Assembly (NCBI RefSeq): GCF_000337675.1
Contig: NZ_AOIB01000036.1
Location: 81,764-145,763, forward strand
Length of the DNA stretch: 64,000 bases
Source of the DNA: Natronococcus amylolyticus DSM 10524
Lineage (GTDB): Archaea > Halobacteriota > Halobacteria > Halobacteriales > Natrialbaceae
Direction of reading: 5' to 3'
Numbering within the stretch: the first letter of the stretch is position 1; each line of letters begins with the position of its first letter. The position numbers were made by a program, and so were the translations under genes. Under the pieces are notes generated by a model. That model was not told where the DNA came from and searched no databases. It was given only the letters and a program-made list of their open reading frames with translations. Below, piece after piece: positions 5,489-38,052 of the stretch.

Positions 5489-6628
5489 ATGAACGTTCGC
5501 GACTACTACTTCACGGCGAAGGGAATCCAGGACCTCGTCGACACCGAACGGGACTCCCCGTCGTGCTCGCAGTCGCTCCCGCGCCGGCTCGCACTCTGGC
5601 GGCGCGGCTTTCTGAGCAGAGCCGGAGTTATCTACGACTTCGAGCGCTACGACCCGGAGGCGTTCGTCAGCGACTATCAGCGGTTCGTCCGGACGAAGAA
5701 CCTCAACGGGACGTGGTCGGTCGCGCTCTCGAACAAGCTGTTTTTCGACTGGCTGATGCGGGCCTACGGCGACCACCGCACGGTCGTCTACGGACTCGTC
5801 CGTGGCGGCCTCTTCCACGAGTTCGACGACTCCCGCGAGCCGGCACCCGCGGCAGTCGCCGGCGACGGAACGGCGGCGCTCGAGCCGGCGGTCGATTCGA
5901 GGACCGCTGTTCGCCACGAGGCCGGTGCGTGGGTCGCCGACCGGCTCGACGAGGAGGGGAAGCTGGTTCTCAAGTGGATCCGTGGCGGTGGCGGCGAGAA
6001 CGTCTTGCTCTGCTCGCGGACCGAGAGCGGCTACGAGATCAACGGCGAGCACTACGATCGTGGTGCCCTCGTCGCCAGGGTCGACGACCTCGAGAACTAC
6101 CTCGTCTGCGAGCACGTCGAGCAGGGGCCGTACGCGGCCGCTCTCTACCCCGAGACGCCCAACACGATCCGCGTGCTCACGATGTACGACGATGAGGCCG
6201 AGGAGGCGTTTATCGCGGCCGCGATCCAGCGGATGGGCTCCGATCTATCCGGTTCGATGGACAACTTCTCACAGGGCGGGCTCAGTGCCGAAATCGACGT
6301 CGAAACCGGCGAACTCGGTCTGGGTGCACAGCTTCCTTACGAGAGCGACCGCCTCGAGTGGCACACCCACCATCCCGAAACCGGAACGCGGATCCAGGGT
6401 ACGGAGGTTCCAGCCTGGGAGACGATCCGAGAGCGAGTTCTCGAGCTGGCCTCGAGCCATCCAATGCTCCCGTACGTCGGCTGGGACCTCGTGCTCACCG
6501 ACGACGAGGGCTCGTTCAAGGTCATCGAAGCGAACGATCACCCCGGACTCAAGGCGATGCAGATCAACGGCCCGCTGCTAGCTGACGAGCGCGTTCGCCG
6601 GTTCTACGAACGCCACGGGGTCTGCTAA
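5489..6628 (+). CDS. ATP-grasp enzyme, sugar-transfer-associated type
   Basis: The 379-residue protein has an N-terminal region with FVRTKNLNGTWSVALSNKLFF and an ATP-grasp core: the glycine-rich loop KWIRGGGGENVLL near residue 165, NTIRVLTMYDD near 225, and a terminal VGWDLVLTDDEGSFKVIEAN motif in which the Asp, Glu and Asn would bind Mg-ATP. It most resembles the sugar-transfer-associated ATP-grasp family, found near polysaccharide genes and thought to ligate carboxylates to amines or hydroxyls. There is no clear partner gene: it stands alone between a divergent propeller lipoprotein and a convergent small gene. Confidence 0.75.
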   Translation: MNVRDYYFTAKGIQDLVDTERDSPSCSQSLPRRLALWRRGFLSRAGVIYDFERYDPEAFVSDYQRFVRTKNLNGTWSVALSNKLFFDWLMRAYGDHRTVVYGLVRGGLFHEFDDSREPAPAAVAGDGTAALEPAVDSRTAVRHEAGAWVADRLDEEGKLVLKWIRGGGGENVLLCSRTESGYEINGEHYDRGALVARVDDLENYLVCEHVEQGPYAAALYPETPNTIRVLTMYDDEAEEAFIAAAIQRMGSDLSGSMDNFSQGGLSAEIDVETGELGLGAQLPYESDRLEWHTHHPETGTRIQGTEVPAWETIRERVLELASSHPMLPYVGWDLVLTDDEGSFKVIEANDHPGLKAMQINGPLLADERVRRFYERHGVC

Positions 6629-27774: not shown

Positions 27775-29397
27775 ATGGCAGAAAAGAACACGAACCGCGG
27801 CACGATGAAGCGGAGAGGGTATCTCAAAGGACTCGCAGCGGGCGGACTCGGCGTCGGGACGCTTTCTGTCGCGAGCACCCGTGCGCATGCGGATACGGGT
27901 AAGGACGACGAGAAGAAGAACGACGAGAAGGAGGAGGAAGCGAAGACGCACGATCTCAAGGGCGACGATCTGTACCTGATCTTCGGCGCCGACTCGTCCG
28001 AGAAGGATCTCGGCGGCTGGGTCGACAAGCACCGCGACGAGATCAACGGCGACTCACAGGAGTCCCTCCCGAACGTCATCCAGTACCAGGAGGTCTCCCA
28101 GCTCAACGTGCTCCAGCAGGGCAACGCCGTCAGCATCGCCATCGACGGCGCCGACGCGACGGCCGTCCAGGAGACCGAGCAGGACAACGTCAACGTCCAG
28201 GACGCGAGCGCGGAGTCGATAGACAGCTCATACGAGACGCGAGACGAGACGTTCTACGACCCCAGTCGAGTGCACATCGTCTTCGCCGAGGAGACCGGCT
28301 GCCGGACGTTCTCCGGCTGGGTCTCCAGAGAGGACACCTACGAGAACGGAGCGTCCGCCACCGCGACGATCGAGCAGGAACAGACCGTCGATCAGTTCAA
28401 CTACAACAGCCAGAGCACGTCGATGGCGGTCGCCGAGAAAGGGAGCTGCGCCCGGTCCTACCAGCGTAGCTGGCAGGCAAACGAGAACTACCAGCACGCC
28501 GAGGCCGTCGCGGCGAACATCGGCGAGGGTGACCGACAGGGAGCCGAGGCGTCGGTCGAGCAGGCCCAGGACGTCTCTCAGCTCAACGTCAGCGAACAGG
28601 GCGTCGCCATCGCGATCGCCGTCGGTAAGTGCAGCACCGCGGAGGCCTACCAGCTGAGCTCCCAGCTCAACGTCAACGAGCAGACCGCCGACGCGACGGC
28701 GATCAGCTTCGGCTTCCGGTCGCCCGACGATATCCTCAAGTGCGCCGAGATGGAGGGCGAGCTTCCGGAAGACGCCGTGGAGCGAACGGACGACGGCAAG
28801 GCTCAGTCGAACGGCCAGGCATCGGCGGAGATCACGCAGGTCCAGTGCGTCGGCCAGGAGAACATCAACCTGCAAAACGCCGCCATCGCTCTCGCCAAGA
28901 AAGACAGCGACGCGACCGCCCGACAGGTGAGCTACCAGGGCAACTTCAACGCGCAGGTGGCCACCGCGGAGGGGCTGAACGTCAGCGACGGACGCTGCAG
29001 CGCGTCTACGGTGCTCAACGGCGCCGCCACCAACGACGACGGCTCCTGGGCGCTGGCCTACGAGAACGGCGACAGCGACGTCGACCTCGAGGAGGCCGCT
29101 GCCGGGATCGACCAGTACCAGTTCGTCGAGCAAGTGAACGTCAACGAGCAGTTCAGCGCGATCGCCTACGCCACCCGCTGCGGCGAGGCGACGGCCGAAC
29201 AGCTGAACTACCAGGCGAACCAGAACGTCCAGGTGACCGAGGCGCGCGCGGTCGGCGATGGCGACGGCGAGGAAAAAGACGAGAAGGACGAGAAGAAGGG
29301 TAAGAAGGACGACAAAGGGAAGAAGGACGAGAAGAAGAACGGCAAGGACAAGGAGAAGAAAGACAAGAAGGACGAGAAGAAAAAGACGAAGCACTAA
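27775..29397 (+). CDS. Tat-exported curlin-like repeat protein, candidate functional amyloid
   Basis: The 540-residue precursor has a twin-arginine signal (KRRGYLKG at 12-19, hydrophobic core, AHA cleavage near 39). Five repeats of about 45 residues lie near 101-145, 199-243, 261-307, 354-398 and 445-489. Each repeat has two strands of the type SQLNVxxQG...AxAxxxQ, as in VSQLNVLQQGNAVSIAI and SSQLNVNEQTADATA, the Gln/Asn ladder of curlin. Two copies of a motif GWV (LYLIFGADSSEKDLGGWV near 66-83; VHIVFAEETGCRTFSGWV near 166-183) precede the first two repeats. Most repeats carry a Cys. The tail (500-540) is almost all Lys, Asp and Glu, unusually Lys-rich for a haloarchaeon. ATG 27805 is an alternative start. 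Confidence 0.8.
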   Translation: MAEKNTNRGTMKRRGYLKGLAAGGLGVGTLSVASTRAHADTGKDDEKKNDEKEEEAKTHDLKGDDLYLIFGADSSEKDLGGWVDKHRDEINGDSQESLPNVIQYQEVSQLNVLQQGNAVSIAIDGADATAVQETEQDNVNVQDASAESIDSSYETRDETFYDPSRVHIVFAEETGCRTFSGWVSREDTYENGASATATIEQEQTVDQFNYNSQSTSMAVAEKGSCARSYQRSWQANENYQHAEAVAANIGEGDRQGAEASVEQAQDVSQLNVSEQGVAIAIAVGKCSTAEAYQLSSQLNVNEQTADATAISFGFRSPDDILKCAEMEGELPEDAVERTDDGKAQSNGQASAEITQVQCVGQENINLQNAAIALAKKDSDATARQVSYQGNFNAQVATAEGLNVSDGRCSASTVLNGAATNDDGSWALAYENGDSDVDLEEAAAGIDQYQFVEQVNVNEQFSAIAYATRCGEATAEQLNYQANQNVQVTEARAVGDGDGEEKDEKDEKKGKKDDKGKKDEKKNGKDKEKKDKKDEKKKTKH

Positions 29398-29920: not shown

Positions 29921-30757
29921 ATGGAACACGACGAGTGGACCGACCGGCTCGAGTCGACGACGGTGACCGTCGACGGCCACGACCTCGAGATGGCGTACGC
30001 CGACGAGGGCGAGGGCCAGCCTCTGGTCTTCCTCCACGGGATACCGACCTCGTCGTACCTCTGGCGGCAGGTTGCGCTCGAGTTCACCGACGACTATCGT
30101 GTGATCGTCCCCGACATGATCGGCTACGGCGAGTCGACGATGGACGACCGGTTCGACCGTTCGATTCGGGCCCAGGAGCAGGCGGTCGCCGACCTGTTCG
30201 ACCAGCTCGGCCTCGACTCGGTTTCCTTCGTCGGCCACGACCTCGGCGGCGGGGTCGGCCTGCGCTACGCCGTCCACGAACCAGAGTCGGTCGACGAGCT
30301 CGTGCTCTCGAACGCCGTCTGCTACGACTCTTGGCCGATCGAGACGATCGTCGATCTCGGGCTCCCGTCGACGATCGACGAGATGAGCGTCGACGAGCTG
30401 ACCGACACGCTCGAGTCGGTGTTTCGCGGGACGCTGTACGGTGACGACGCCGACGACGCCTTCGTCGAGGGGATGGTCGACCAGTGGGCCTCCGAAGAGG
30501 GGATGGTCTCGCTGTCCCGGAACGCGATCGGCACGAACACGAGCCACACGACCGAGATCGACCCCGCCGAGGTGACCGCCCGCACGCTCCTATTGTGGGG
30601 CGCCGAGGACGAGTTCCAGCCGATCGAGTACGCCGAGCGCCTCGAGCGCGATATCGACGGCGCCGACCTCGTCGGGCTCGAGGAAGCGAACCACTGGGTG
30701 CCTGAAGACCGACCCGAGGCCTACCGCGAGGAGCTGCGGTCGTTCCTCGAGGATTAG
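29921..30757 (+). CDS. Alpha/beta hydrolase with Asp nucleophile (epoxide hydrolase/dehalogenase type)
   Basis: The 278-residue protein carries LVFLHGIPTSSYLWRQ near residue 34 and a nucleophile elbow VGHDLGGG near residue 105, in which Asp takes the nucleophile position, as in epoxide hydrolases and haloalkane dehalogenases. The base His is in EEANHWVPEDRP near the end. The HGxPTSSYLWR segment resembles dehalogenases, but the halide-binding Asn and Trp positions are Ile and Leu, so dehalogenation is doubtful. ATG 29921 is preferred to the earlier in-frame ATG, which overlaps promoter space shared with the divergent gene. Confidence 0.8.
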   Translation: MEHDEWTDRLESTTVTVDGHDLEMAYADEGEGQPLVFLHGIPTSSYLWRQVALEFTDDYRVIVPDMIGYGESTMDDRFDRSIRAQEQAVADLFDQLGLDSVSFVGHDLGGGVGLRYAVHEPESVDELVLSNAVCYDSWPIETIVDLGLPSTIDEMSVDELTDTLESVFRGTLYGDDADDAFVEGMVDQWASEEGMVSLSRNAIGTNTSHTTEIDPAEVTARTLLLWGAEDEFQPIEYAERLERDIDGADLVGLEEANHWVPEDRPEAYREELRSFLED

Positions 30758-30849
30758 TCGGTAGCTGAGGCGACGGGTTCTGTATCCTGCCTGAGTCGCG
30801 ACCGAATATGCCGAATCGTTACGTGGCGCGTGCGAGTGGAACGCCCCGG

Positions 30850-31100
30850 CCTCGAGTCTACACCCCTGACTAACCACCGCCGAGTGGGACTGAAAGGGGT
30901 TTTCCCGGTAGTGGCGACGGTATCAGTCCTGTTCACACGAACACAGGGGTTCGCCACCCCCTCCCCAGCCGATTCACTCGCTTTGCTCACGGCTTCCGCC
31001 GTTCGCATTGCCGCGGCGCACAGCGCCGCGCTCCGCTCGCTCATCCCTCGCGTAGGTTCGGACGACGGCTCGCGCCCTGCTGCGCTCGCCGTCGCCAAGC
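30850..31100 (+). repeat. Intergenic repeat element, copy A
   Basis: The element begins with CCTCGAGTCTACACCCCTGA, then GTGGGACTGAAAGGGG (30884-30899), and continues with CACACGAACAC and CCTCCCCAGCCGATT-type segments to a CGCTCCGCTCGCTCATCC stretch. A second copy with the same order of conserved blocks lies in inverted orientation at 37620-37968. An open frame crosses it (30830-31144, with NHRRVGLKG near the start) and matches a frame in copy B, but the composition is basic and I treat it as a DNA/RNA element. Confidence 0.65.
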
Positions 31101-31192
31101 ACGCGCCACCGCAGGAGAGTTCGTTGAACCAAAGTGACTCATAGTTGGCCTGTGCTGAATATACAGTGACTTTCGCTCACGACACTTACAGA

Positions 31193-31203
31193 CCCAATAT
31201 AAA
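31193..31203 (+). promoter_or_regulatory. TATA box of the two-small-gene operon
   Basis: CCAATATAAAC lies 28-38 nt before ATG 31231, and a GGGAGAG Shine-Dalgarno-like run lies a few bases before that ATG. Confidence 0.55.
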
Positions 31204-31230
31204 CGGATTATTCGATTAAGGGAGAGACCA

Positions 31231-31401
31231 ATGCGGGTACGACCGGTACATGTTGGTATGGCACACAAGCACCGTGCCGATGACCGAGGCAGCGACACTG
31301 AACCAAAATTCTACCTCCCTGCCGGGAACACCCCACCGTTCTATGCCAGTTCCCTCGAGCGCCTCTGGGCGTCGCTATTCGACCAATACGTTGAATCATC
31401 A
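31231..31401 (+). CDS. Small 57-residue soluble protein, first of an overlapping pair (stop codon follows at 31402-31404)
   Basis: The product starts MRVRPVHVGMAHKHRADDRG and ends LERLWASLFDQYVESS; the TAA is at 31402-31404. A TATA box and a GGGAGAG ribosome-binding site precede the ATG, which is unusual among the mostly leaderless genes here. The stop overlaps the next start by one base (TAATG). Codon GC3 is lower than in the neighbours. No family recognised. An internal ATG at 31258 is an alternative. Confidence 0.5.
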
Positions 31402-31403
31402 TA

Positions 31404-31562
31404 ATGAGTGTCTCTGGGATGTTACCACAATTTGGCGAACTCCTCGATGGAGAGGAAATGACTGGCAAACAGGCAGCGCTAATAGTGGCTGTTTGGATGG
31501 GAGCGACCGCCGTCTTCGGACTGATTTCCTATATTCTCGTGTTCGTCATTATGGGTGCGTGA
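31404..31562 (+). CDS. Small 52-residue single-pass membrane protein, second of the pair
   Basis: The product starts MSVSGMLPQFGELLDGEEMT and continues through a single strong membrane helix (AALIVAVWMGATAVFGLISY and more) to TGA 31560-31562. The acidic N-terminal segment followed by a helix is typical of small regulatory or accessory membrane proteins. Overlap with the preceding ORF implies translational coupling. Function unknown. Confidence 0.6.
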   Translation: MSVSGMLPQFGELLDGEEMTGKQAALIVAVWMGATAVFGLISYILVFVIMGA

Positions 31563-31629
31563 GTACTGCTTGCGCTGTCTCTCAGTCGTATGCGAGTTTC
31601 ACACCAGAAGAGTCGTACTAGGTCTACCG

Positions 31630-32793
31630 CTATCGATCGACGTCCCTGCCGCTCTCCCAGCCCCGTGGCGAGTTGTTCAGTCGCTCGCAGCCCCCGTCGG
31701 TGACGGCGACGAGGTCCTCGATCCGCACCCCGAATTCGCCCTCGAGGTAGATCCCCGGCTCGACGGAAAAGACCATTCCGGGCTCGAGCTCGCGGTCGTT
31801 GCCCGCGGTGATGTACGGCGGCTCGTGGACCTCGAGGCCGACGCCGTGGCCCGTGCGGTGGACGAAGGCGTCGCCGTAGCCCGCCTCGTCGATCACCGAG
31901 CGAGCGACGCGGTCGATCTCGCCGGCCTCGACGCCGGGTTCGACAGCCTCGACGGCTGCCCGCTGGGCCTCGCGAACGGCCTCGTGAACCCGTTCGTACT
32001 CCGCGGGCGGTTCGCCGACGACGATCGTTCGGGTCTGGTCACCCGGATACCGCGCGGTTCCCGCCTCGAGGTCGCTCCCGACGAACGCGCCGAAGTCCAG
32101 CACGATCGGCTCGCCTCGTTCGATCTCGCGATCGCCGGGGTGGTGGTGGGGGCGGGCGCCGTTCGGCCCGGCGGCTACAATCGTCTCGAAGGCAGGCTCC
32201 CCGCCACCCTCCGCTGCCAGCAGCGAGTCGATCTCGCTCGCGAGTTCGGCCTCGGTCGTCCCGACCAGCTCCTCGCCGCGGGATCTGATCTCGAGGGAGA
32301 CGCGGTCGGCGATTTCGCCCGCCCGGCGAAGCGCCGCGAGCTCGGTCTCGTCTTTGCGGATGCGAAGCTCCTCGAGGGCCGCGCTCGCGAGGCCGAACTC
32401 GGCGCCGGGGAGCAGCGAGCGCAGGTCGTGGTTGAACGTCGTCCACATGCGGTCGTCGAGCAACACGGTTGGCTCGTCGGCACTGTCTGCGCTCTCGAGC
32501 GCCATTCCCTCGAGAACGTCCTCGACGACGGCCAGCGGGTCCGTCTCATCGTCCCAGAGTCTGACGTTCGCAACGCCGAGGGACTCGAGCTGTGCCCCGT
32601 ACATCGCGGGCGCGACGATCGCGGGCGCCCCGTCTCGTGGAACGAACAGCAGGAAGTGGCGCTCGGAGGGCGACTCGACGAACCCCGTTAGATAAGTGAG
32701 GTTCGGGCTCGGAAAGCAGATGAGTAGCTCCGCGCCGACGGTCTCGAGTCGGCGCCGACAGGCCTCGATGCGGGCGTCGAACGGGGGGTGCAT
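31630..32793 (-). CDS. M24-family metallopeptidase (Xaa-Pro dipeptidase-like)
   Basis: The 387-residue protein has an N-terminal creatinase-like domain and a C-terminal pita-bread domain. Metal ligands are visible as LDFGA and GDQTRT (two Asp), GHGVGLEVHE (His), VEPGIYLEG and RIEDLV (two Glu). The spacing between the two Asp is about eight residues longer than usual because of an insertion (VGSDLEAGTA). It should hydrolyse Xaa-Pro dipeptides in the cytosol. It is a single gene, divergent from otsA. Confidence 0.9.
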   Translation of the reverse strand: MHPPFDARIEACRRRLETVGAELLICFPSPNLTYLTGFVESPSERHFLLFVPRDGAPAIVAPAMYGAQLESLGVANVRLWDDETDPLAVVEDVLEGMALESADSADEPTVLLDDRMWTTFNHDLRSLLPGAEFGLASAALEELRIRKDETELAALRRAGEIADRVSLEIRSRGEELVGTTEAELASEIDSLLAAEGGGEPAFETIVAAGPNGARPHHHPGDREIERGEPIVLDFGAFVGSDLEAGTARYPGDQTRTIVVGEPPAEYERVHEAVREAQRAAVEAVEPGVEAGEIDRVARSVIDEAGYGDAFVHRTGHGVGLEVHEPPYITAGNDRELEPGMVFSVEPGIYLEGEFGVRIEDLVAVTDGGCERLNNSPRGWESGRDVDR

Positions 32794-37160: not shown

Positions 37161-38052
37161 GCGTTCTCCCCCGGCAGCGCTCGAGCCGCTTCTCGCCGTC
37201 CTCGTTCTCGGTCGCTCATCACTCGAGTCGAGTCGGGCCGGTCCTATCGTCGGTCGGGTTAACAGTTGCGACAGTTATACGTGGCTGAGTGTCCCCAATC
37301 CGGAACTGATCCGATCGGCTGACGGTCGTTTTGTCGATACCCTCGAGCAGCAAACATCACTCCCGACGTCTCTACCTCCTGTCCGGGGTGACACGGGATC
37401 GGAACTGGCCGTAGAGCCAAATAGCGATTCCGGACCGAGCAATTGTCGGTAGCGATAGTTGACAACGCGATTCTTCACCCAGGGTTTGGTGTGAAGTTCG
37501 CGTTCAGTACAGGTGAACAACGCATCAGCTCAGTCCGACCATCCCACCTGCAGTGGCGCGCGCTGTCGACGGGCCGAACGTCAGTGAGGACGGTCGACGA
37601 TGCTGTGCGAGGTCTTCGCGAGTAACACGAGCGAATGGCTTGGCAGAGCTTGCTCTGCCAGTGGATGAGCGAGCGCAGCGAGTGAGCGTAGCGCGGAACC
37701 TACGGTTCCGCGGACCATGCGAACGGGCGCTGCGCGCCCGTGAGCAGAAATCGGTTGGGGAGGACGTGGCAATCCCGCGTGTTCGTGCGAGTAGAACCTG
37801 CTACTCGTCAGTATCACCCGAAAGCCCCTGGCCCGCTGGAGGGGCTGCGGCTCGCTGCGCGCTTCCCTCGCTCCGCTCAGTCCAGTGCTTACTTCGCCTC
37901 GCACCTCCAGCGGGCCAGCCCCTTTCAGTCCCACCCAACGGTGATTAGCCGGGGCTGCAGACTCGAGGACGAACATTCCATTCGCATACGCAATTACCGC
38001 GTTCGAGTCGGTTCAGCCGTCGTTCCGAATCCCGAGCTCGTACTCCGATCGA
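37161..38052. other. Long intergenic region with repeat copy B
   Basis: This 890-base region holds the inverted copy of the repeat at 37620-37968. The 37260-37540 part is AT-richer, with only weak short frames (for example a minus-strand frame with LHTKPWVKNRVVNYRYRQLL), possibly decayed mobile DNA. No gene is supported. Confidence 0.5.
37620..37968 (-). repeat. Intergenic repeat element, copy B, with a long internal hairpin
   Basis: On the minus strand the element runs CCTCGAGTCTGCAGCCCCGG, GTGGGACTGAAAGGGG, then a hairpin with perfect 15-base arms (CTGGCCCGCTGGAGG at 37828-37842 and its complement at 37904-37918, 61-base loop), then CGCACGAACACGCGGG and CCTCCCCAACCGATT. The order and sequence match copy A except for the hairpin, which copy A lacks. 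Confidence 0.65.

Follow-up and report, generated by a model that had tools for sequence, protein, structure and literature searches.

A pair of overlapping tiny genes in a haloarchaeon, probably run from a reusable promoter-plus-leader cassette tied to a BAT/HTH_10 regulator

The window analysed here is a stretch of 64,000 nucleotides within contig C36 of a 4.4-Mb haloarchaeal genome (G000). Two frames, which we call ORF1 (31231-31404, 57 codons) and ORF2 (31404-31562, 52 codons), have one base in common within TAATG, and both the coordinates and the overlap agree with what the initial annotation described. They are preceded by CCAATATAAAC at 31194-31204 and by GGGAGAG at 31220-31226. The G+C content of 31231-31562 is 53.3% compared to 66.4% for the whole window, a value equally low in only 0.5% of 332-nt windows, in agreement with the lower G+C described initially. 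The features of the locus are as follows.

31160-31580, forward strand: unit common to the five pair-bearing genomes (approximate limits; identity is at background level outside)
31199-31227, forward strand: conserved core-promoter element common to ORF1 copies, with a TATA box at about 31198-31203 and TTAAG at 31216-31220
31231-31257, forward strand: N-terminal extension of ORF1 from an upstream ATG (ambiguous start), open in all five ORF2-linked copies
31258-31404, forward strand: ORF1, a member of an undescribed, BAT/HTH_10-linked family; 48 aa when read from the family start, 57 aa when read from 31231
31402-31406, forward strand: TAATG stop/start overlap of ORF1 and ORF2, exact in the window, L072 and L082, TGATG in G205 and TACTG in A-GB1
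31404-31420, forward strand: capture junction, the first five ORF2 codons being derived from an EamA gene start, by comparison with the EamA start ATGGGTTTCCCTGAGAT
31404-31562, forward strand: ORF2, 52 aa with one predicted transmembrane helix, as judged from homology, selection and a structure model

The neighbours of the pair, an alpha/beta hydrolase (29921-30757), an M24 peptidase on the opposite strand (31630-32793) and a trehalose-phosphate synthase and phosphatase, have no obvious common function. Positions 27775-29397 of the window encode a 540-aa protein of QLNVNEQ-like repeats with a lysine-rich tail. The repeat copy that the segment was said to follow ('repeat copy A', 30831-30907) is real, with an inverted copy at 37911-37986 (78% identity), and the region 30760-31180 is part of a dispersed intergenic repeat, with 42 matches across the genome when the window is counted; however, the repeat copy lies about 320 nt upstream of the pair, outside the module. 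A scan for bacterial-type promoters and terminators gave nothing useful.

Searches of Pfam and NCBIfam returned no family above cut-off for either ORF1 or ORF2, a Pfam search with the 19 and 27 alignment members gave only three stray single-member matches (E 0.025-0.07), and no credible relative of either protein was found among solved structures. No publication on the module was found in the literature covered, which excludes most subscription journals. ORF2 belongs to a family detected in 16 of the 243 genomes of the order with a single sequence and in 53 with a profile, with three copies in the genome of the window. Positions M1, L14, G16, T20, G21, A24 and W31 (numbered as in the window copy) are invariant, and the dN/dS of about 0.15 among the five pair genomes and 0.18 among nine close copies is a clear sign, at the level of sequence, of purifying selection. 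The structure model (mean pLDDT 80) consists of a short N-terminal helix (3-14) and a long hydrophobic helix (21-50), and a fold search against the PDB gave no match. With a GRAVY of +1.14 and this one long predicted helix, the second product may well be the single-pass membrane protein that it had been taken for. Both frames are short and unannotated in some relatives, which leaves room for the suspicion that they arose by chance in intergenic DNA that is richer in A+T. We consider this scarcely credible: ORF1 and ORF2 both have homologues across genera, ORF2 is under purifying selection and ORF1 is without premature stops, and the conservation of both frames already refutes it.

The ORF1 family (45-49 aa) was present in 24 of the 243 genomes in a single-sequence search, and a profile search added three weak matches, in G055, G121 and G147. 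The homologue in G147, a distant one, has as neighbours a GcvT (66% identical) and a gene that looks EamA-like from its sequence. In an alignment of 27 members the family start falls on the second ATG (31258). Only 9 of the 37 ORF1 copies with a recognised element, including all five that are ORF2-linked, have the upstream ATG (31231 in the window) in frame with an open path into ORF1, and recognition missed 11 of 48 copies (L132 and L134 being weak matches without the element, the other nine recognisable variants). The 57-codon frame of the initial annotation is therefore a possible reading in the window, where it is open from 31231, but not a general one, and relatives start at 31258 with 48 codons. 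ORF1 was modelled with low confidence (mean pLDDT 63.6), and its single fold match among viral models (E 6.6) was dismissed as meaningless.

Codon evidence for a selected ORF1 product is mixed. Haloarcula copies have a dN/dS of 0.33, with 33/25/62 changes at the first, second and third codon positions, whereas the 18 Natrialbaceae-type copies have a dN/dS of about 0.68 and a flat distribution of changes (60/56/66), which lends weak support to a selected product there. At nine of the same Natrialbaceae-type loci, pN was 0.158 for ORF1 compared to 0.045 for EamA and 0.048 for the regulator described below. Premature stops are absent from the sets of 18, 11 and all 43 aligned copies, for which an unconstrained frame would be expected to give 7.7, 5.3 and 25.9, respectively; this result is favoured by the copies having been found as open frames and by the omission of one decayed copy of this genome. 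That decayed copy (L007/L059) entered neither the codon counts nor the class tree, and classes and trees also exclude the weak matches L132-L134.

Upstream of ORF1 copies lies ATAANNNGRTTATWCGMTTAAGNNASAGA or a close variant of it. Pairwise identity averages 0.96 across the central 20 columns of this element in classes A and D, and across its second half in class C. The TATA box noted earlier gains support because it falls inside this almost invariant element. A search of four genomes allowing up to three mismatches found eight places, all of them ORF1 copies (one a relic), and none with a reversed control. Matches obtained from the DNA pattern independently of open reading frames in the contig collection were all haloarchaeal (19/19), with ORF1 at 18 of the 19 sites. 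At the remaining locus, L071, the element immediately precedes a thiolase gene, and GcvT and the regulator lie upstream of it; the contig ends inside GcvT, and an ORF1 before GcvT is possible there. The GGGAGAG proposed as a Shine-Dalgarno sequence did not survive comparison, as Haloarcula copies have GCTACAGA instead and it lies 30 nt from the family start codon at 31258; it keeps no conserved spacing before a start codon.

The conservation upstream of ORF1 could also indicate an RNA element, such as a riboswitch-like leader, rather than a promoter or operator. It extends beyond the presumed transcription start, and synonymous divergence in the pair genomes is low for ORF1 (pS 0.15, compared to 0.39 for ORF2). 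Nevertheless, it is strongest between the TATA box and the presumed transcription start, no stable or covarying fold was found (z-scores of -0.5, -0.2, 0.6 and 0.9; covariation term of -1.1 kcal/mol), and Rfam has no match within the window. We therefore regard an RNA element as unlikely, and treat the sequence as a candidate promoter element below.

A 221-aa protein with BAT and HTH_10 domains accompanies the ORF1 family. In the two copies of this regulator tested, HTH_10 scored above cut-off in both and BAT in one, the other reaching 25.5 against a cut-off of 25.8. At E <1e-100 the regulator is found in 24 of the 243 genomes, which are the same 24 that carry ORF1, and in every one of them (24/24) it lies within 2.5 kb of an ORF1 copy on the same contig. 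If the labels were independent, such a match would have a probability of 1e-33 by genome and 9e-13 by genus, both of which are too small because the genomes are related. One further genome, the 25th, encodes a regulator of 55% identity but lacks ORF1 (G111). Although the family stands near a regulator, the pair in the window does not: in this genome the regulator is encoded on contig C31, next to a further ORF1 copy with an EamA transporter behind it, and in A-GB1 and A-GB7, which carry ORF1-ORF2, it is likewise elsewhere, beside ORF1-EamA (L074, L085). The ORF1-EamA copy on C31 adjoins a gene for a Cas12f1-like TNB domain protein (TnpB-like; L138, 6609-7880). No intact element was found upstream of the regulator gene, where the TTAAGCTAC half was present in 4 of 36 upstream regions, and autoregulation through the same element was rejected as a candidate on this partial motif.

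The gene behind ORF1 varies, being an EamA transporter, a GcvT/DmdA-like enzyme, the regulator or ORF2 (6, 3, 6 and 3, respectively, of the 19 named element loci, the nineteenth locus being the one without ORF1). Spacing differs with the cargo: stop and start overlap in front of EamA, mostly 8-10 nt separate ORF1 from GcvT, and 157-281 nt separate it from the regulator; at the named loci these distances are 10 nt for GcvT and 174-281 nt for the regulator. In Haloarcula there is no overlapping cargo, and the next gene is about 170-260 nt away. The regulator occurs within the retrieved stretch in 6/6 loci of the EamA class, 2/3 of the GcvT class (one a 75-aa fragment) and 6/6 of the regulator class, but in 0/3 of the ORF2 class; it is thus present, whole, cut by the end of the stretch or as the one 75-aa fragment, in 14 of 15 non-pair loci compared to none of three pair loci, and it is also present at L071. 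In the genome of the window the ORF1 in front of GcvT has decayed, while the GcvT frame itself stays open (L139, contig C36, 6248-6361, before a long GcvT-like frame; the element is still readable). Two tandem ORF1 copies precede a single GcvT-like gene at L155 in G138 (5912-6274). On a Haloarcula plasmid (L066, 348-3519), genes annotated as DUF6691, YeeE/YedE, MBL-fold, TusA and DsrE-like lie just upstream of ORF1-GcvT.

These arrangements may indicate that ORF1 is a leader cistron only, of which the translation matters and not the product: ribosomes would be delivered to the overlapping cargo start, and the regulator alone would regulate. The stop/start overlap with EamA and ORF2, the decayed ORF1 before GcvT in this genome, and the combination in Natrialbaceae of a flat codon-position pattern and high dN/dS with 18 copies free of premature stops would all be consistent with such a role. 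On the other hand, ORF1 in Haloarcula lacks overlapping cargo and yet has the low dN/dS and the excess of third-position changes given above, and distant homologues retain YLPG and ER..LFRRR-like motifs. A role as leader only is therefore a possibility that we hold to be less likely than not by some way, and we return below to the reading in which the ORF1 product also has a function.

Five genomes carry the ORF1-ORF2 pair, at four unrelated locations, and within the order set it is found in 2 of the 243 genomes. This conservation, judged by sequence comparison, supports the proposed operon of two tiny genes, and the same-strand stop/start overlap is kept in four of the five pair-bearing genomes. 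A check of whether ORF1 and ORF2 always occur together gave a negative answer, as each without the other is the rule. Given their small size, their order and overlap, and the one membrane helix in ORF2, the two might have formed a toxin-antitoxin-like system, with a membrane-acting tiny protein and a soluble tiny partner. This we consider very improbable: the two genes are not inherited together (ORF2 is found in 53/243 genomes, ORF1 in 24/243 and the pair in 2/243), and their joining appears to be a single capture.

The evidence for capture lies at the start of ORF2. Its first 17 bases differ from the EamA start ATGGGTTTCCCTGAGAT (L031, L078) at one position in L072, L082 and G205 and at four in the window and A-GB1, while solo ORF2 genes begin differently and resemble the pair ORF2 only from about TGCTGTCACAATTT onward. 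In a tree of promoter and ORF1 DNA, the five pair genomes group as a single clade (100/98) that falls within the EamA-linked copies; the ORF2 protein tree lacks the support needed to distinguish a single from a multiple origin. The flanks of the pair are common to the window and A-GB1 only, L072, L082 and G205 being elsewhere. Taken together, the junction, the nested clade and the unlike flanks indicate that an ORF2 gene acquired promoter, ORF1 and start region in a single capture, within Natrialbaceae, and that the resulting unit of about 400 nt then spread or was rearranged. In A-GB1 the overlap is now TACTG, so that translation of ORF2 would have to begin at an ATG further in or at a less common start codon. 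The suggestion of a horizontally acquired module thus holds in part. The unit does sit at four unrelated locations in five genomes, but it arose within Natrialbaceae by promoter capture, and no association with a transposase, integrase or virus was found: phages and viral contigs gave no match to the module, and a scan of eight neighbour proteins of pair loci revealed no transposase domain.

We propose that the window carries a two-gene operon which is probably run from a reusable haloarchaeal promoter-plus-leader cassette, tied to the 221-aa BAT/HTH_10 regulator and captured by a solo ORF2. The conservation, the co-occurrence, the element, the variable cargo, the chimeric junction and the nested tree are observed; the steps that join them are as follows. 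The cassette would consist of the conserved core-promoter element and ORF1. In a Natrialbaceae ancestor, promoter, ORF1 and the first five EamA codons would have been fused in frame with a solo ORF2 gene, a capture that would place a small membrane protein in the regulon of the regulator. The regulator would control transcription at the element, a putative operator, and ribosomes ending ORF1 may reinitiate at the overlapping EamA or ORF2 start, by analogy with gene pairs of Haloferax volcanii. The ORF1 product could be a small partner assisting the regulator, on the model of Brz and Brb with Bat; this is the weakest step, suggested by co-occurrence and the selection pattern in Haloarcula. Against the proposal stand the flat ORF1 pattern in Natrialbaceae, the decayed ORF1 before GcvT, the overlap lost in A-GB1, the regulator without ORF1 in G111 and the missing intact element upstream of the regulator gene. 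A more far-reaching version is doubtful, although it may be correct: a portable promoter-leader cassette owned by the regulator would stand before at least four unlike genes (a transporter, a demethylase-like enzyme, a tiny membrane protein and a thiolase), with the leader product as the regulator's small partner and a modular regulon built by capturing promoter, first cistron and start region together.

Scattered binding sites are the usual basis for inferring how genes join a regulon. At this locus the junction falls within the opening codons of the cargo, and it shows that promoter, first cistron and start region were transferred together to a gene unrelated to them. Haloarchaea have many BAT/HTH_10 regulators that are uncharacterised, and for one of these there is now a small protein with perfect co-occurrence, which opens direct tests of what such regulators, and tiny archaeal proteins, do.

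Among known systems, the nearest is that of Bat, Brz and Brb, which control the bop gene in Halobacterium salinarum and in which tiny proteins encoded beside or overlapping related genes act with the Bat regulator (PMC3184054). Brz contains a zinc finger, and the pI of 11.4 given for Brb makes it strongly basic (PMC3184054), whereas ORF1 has neither property, with no cysteine and a pI of 5.4-6.8; the regulator here has 221 aa, and the cargo is different. Termination-reinitiation has been demonstrated for overlapping gene pairs in Haloferax volcanii, which are alike in their same-strand stop/start overlap (PMC6728339). In the present case the coupling is putative, the cargo behind ORF1 is exchangeable and the junction lies within the first codons of the cargo. 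ORF2 resembles KPN_two_small (NF033853) as a tiny single-helix protein, but scores 13 bits against a cut-off of 33. The neighbour enzyme of one class is of the GCV_T family, like the DmdA/GcvT aminomethyltransferases, with PRK12486 as its best NCBIfam model and 3tfh as its best solved relative; at 239.5 bits against a cut-off of 410 (PRK12486), it is not a member by that test. A physiological theme of methylated osmolytes or C1 transfer is suggested by this DmdA-like neighbour alone, which falls below the DmdA model cut-off. Compared with these systems, the locus is a small-protein operon tied to a Bat-class regulator, distinguished by a reusable cassette and a visible capture junction.
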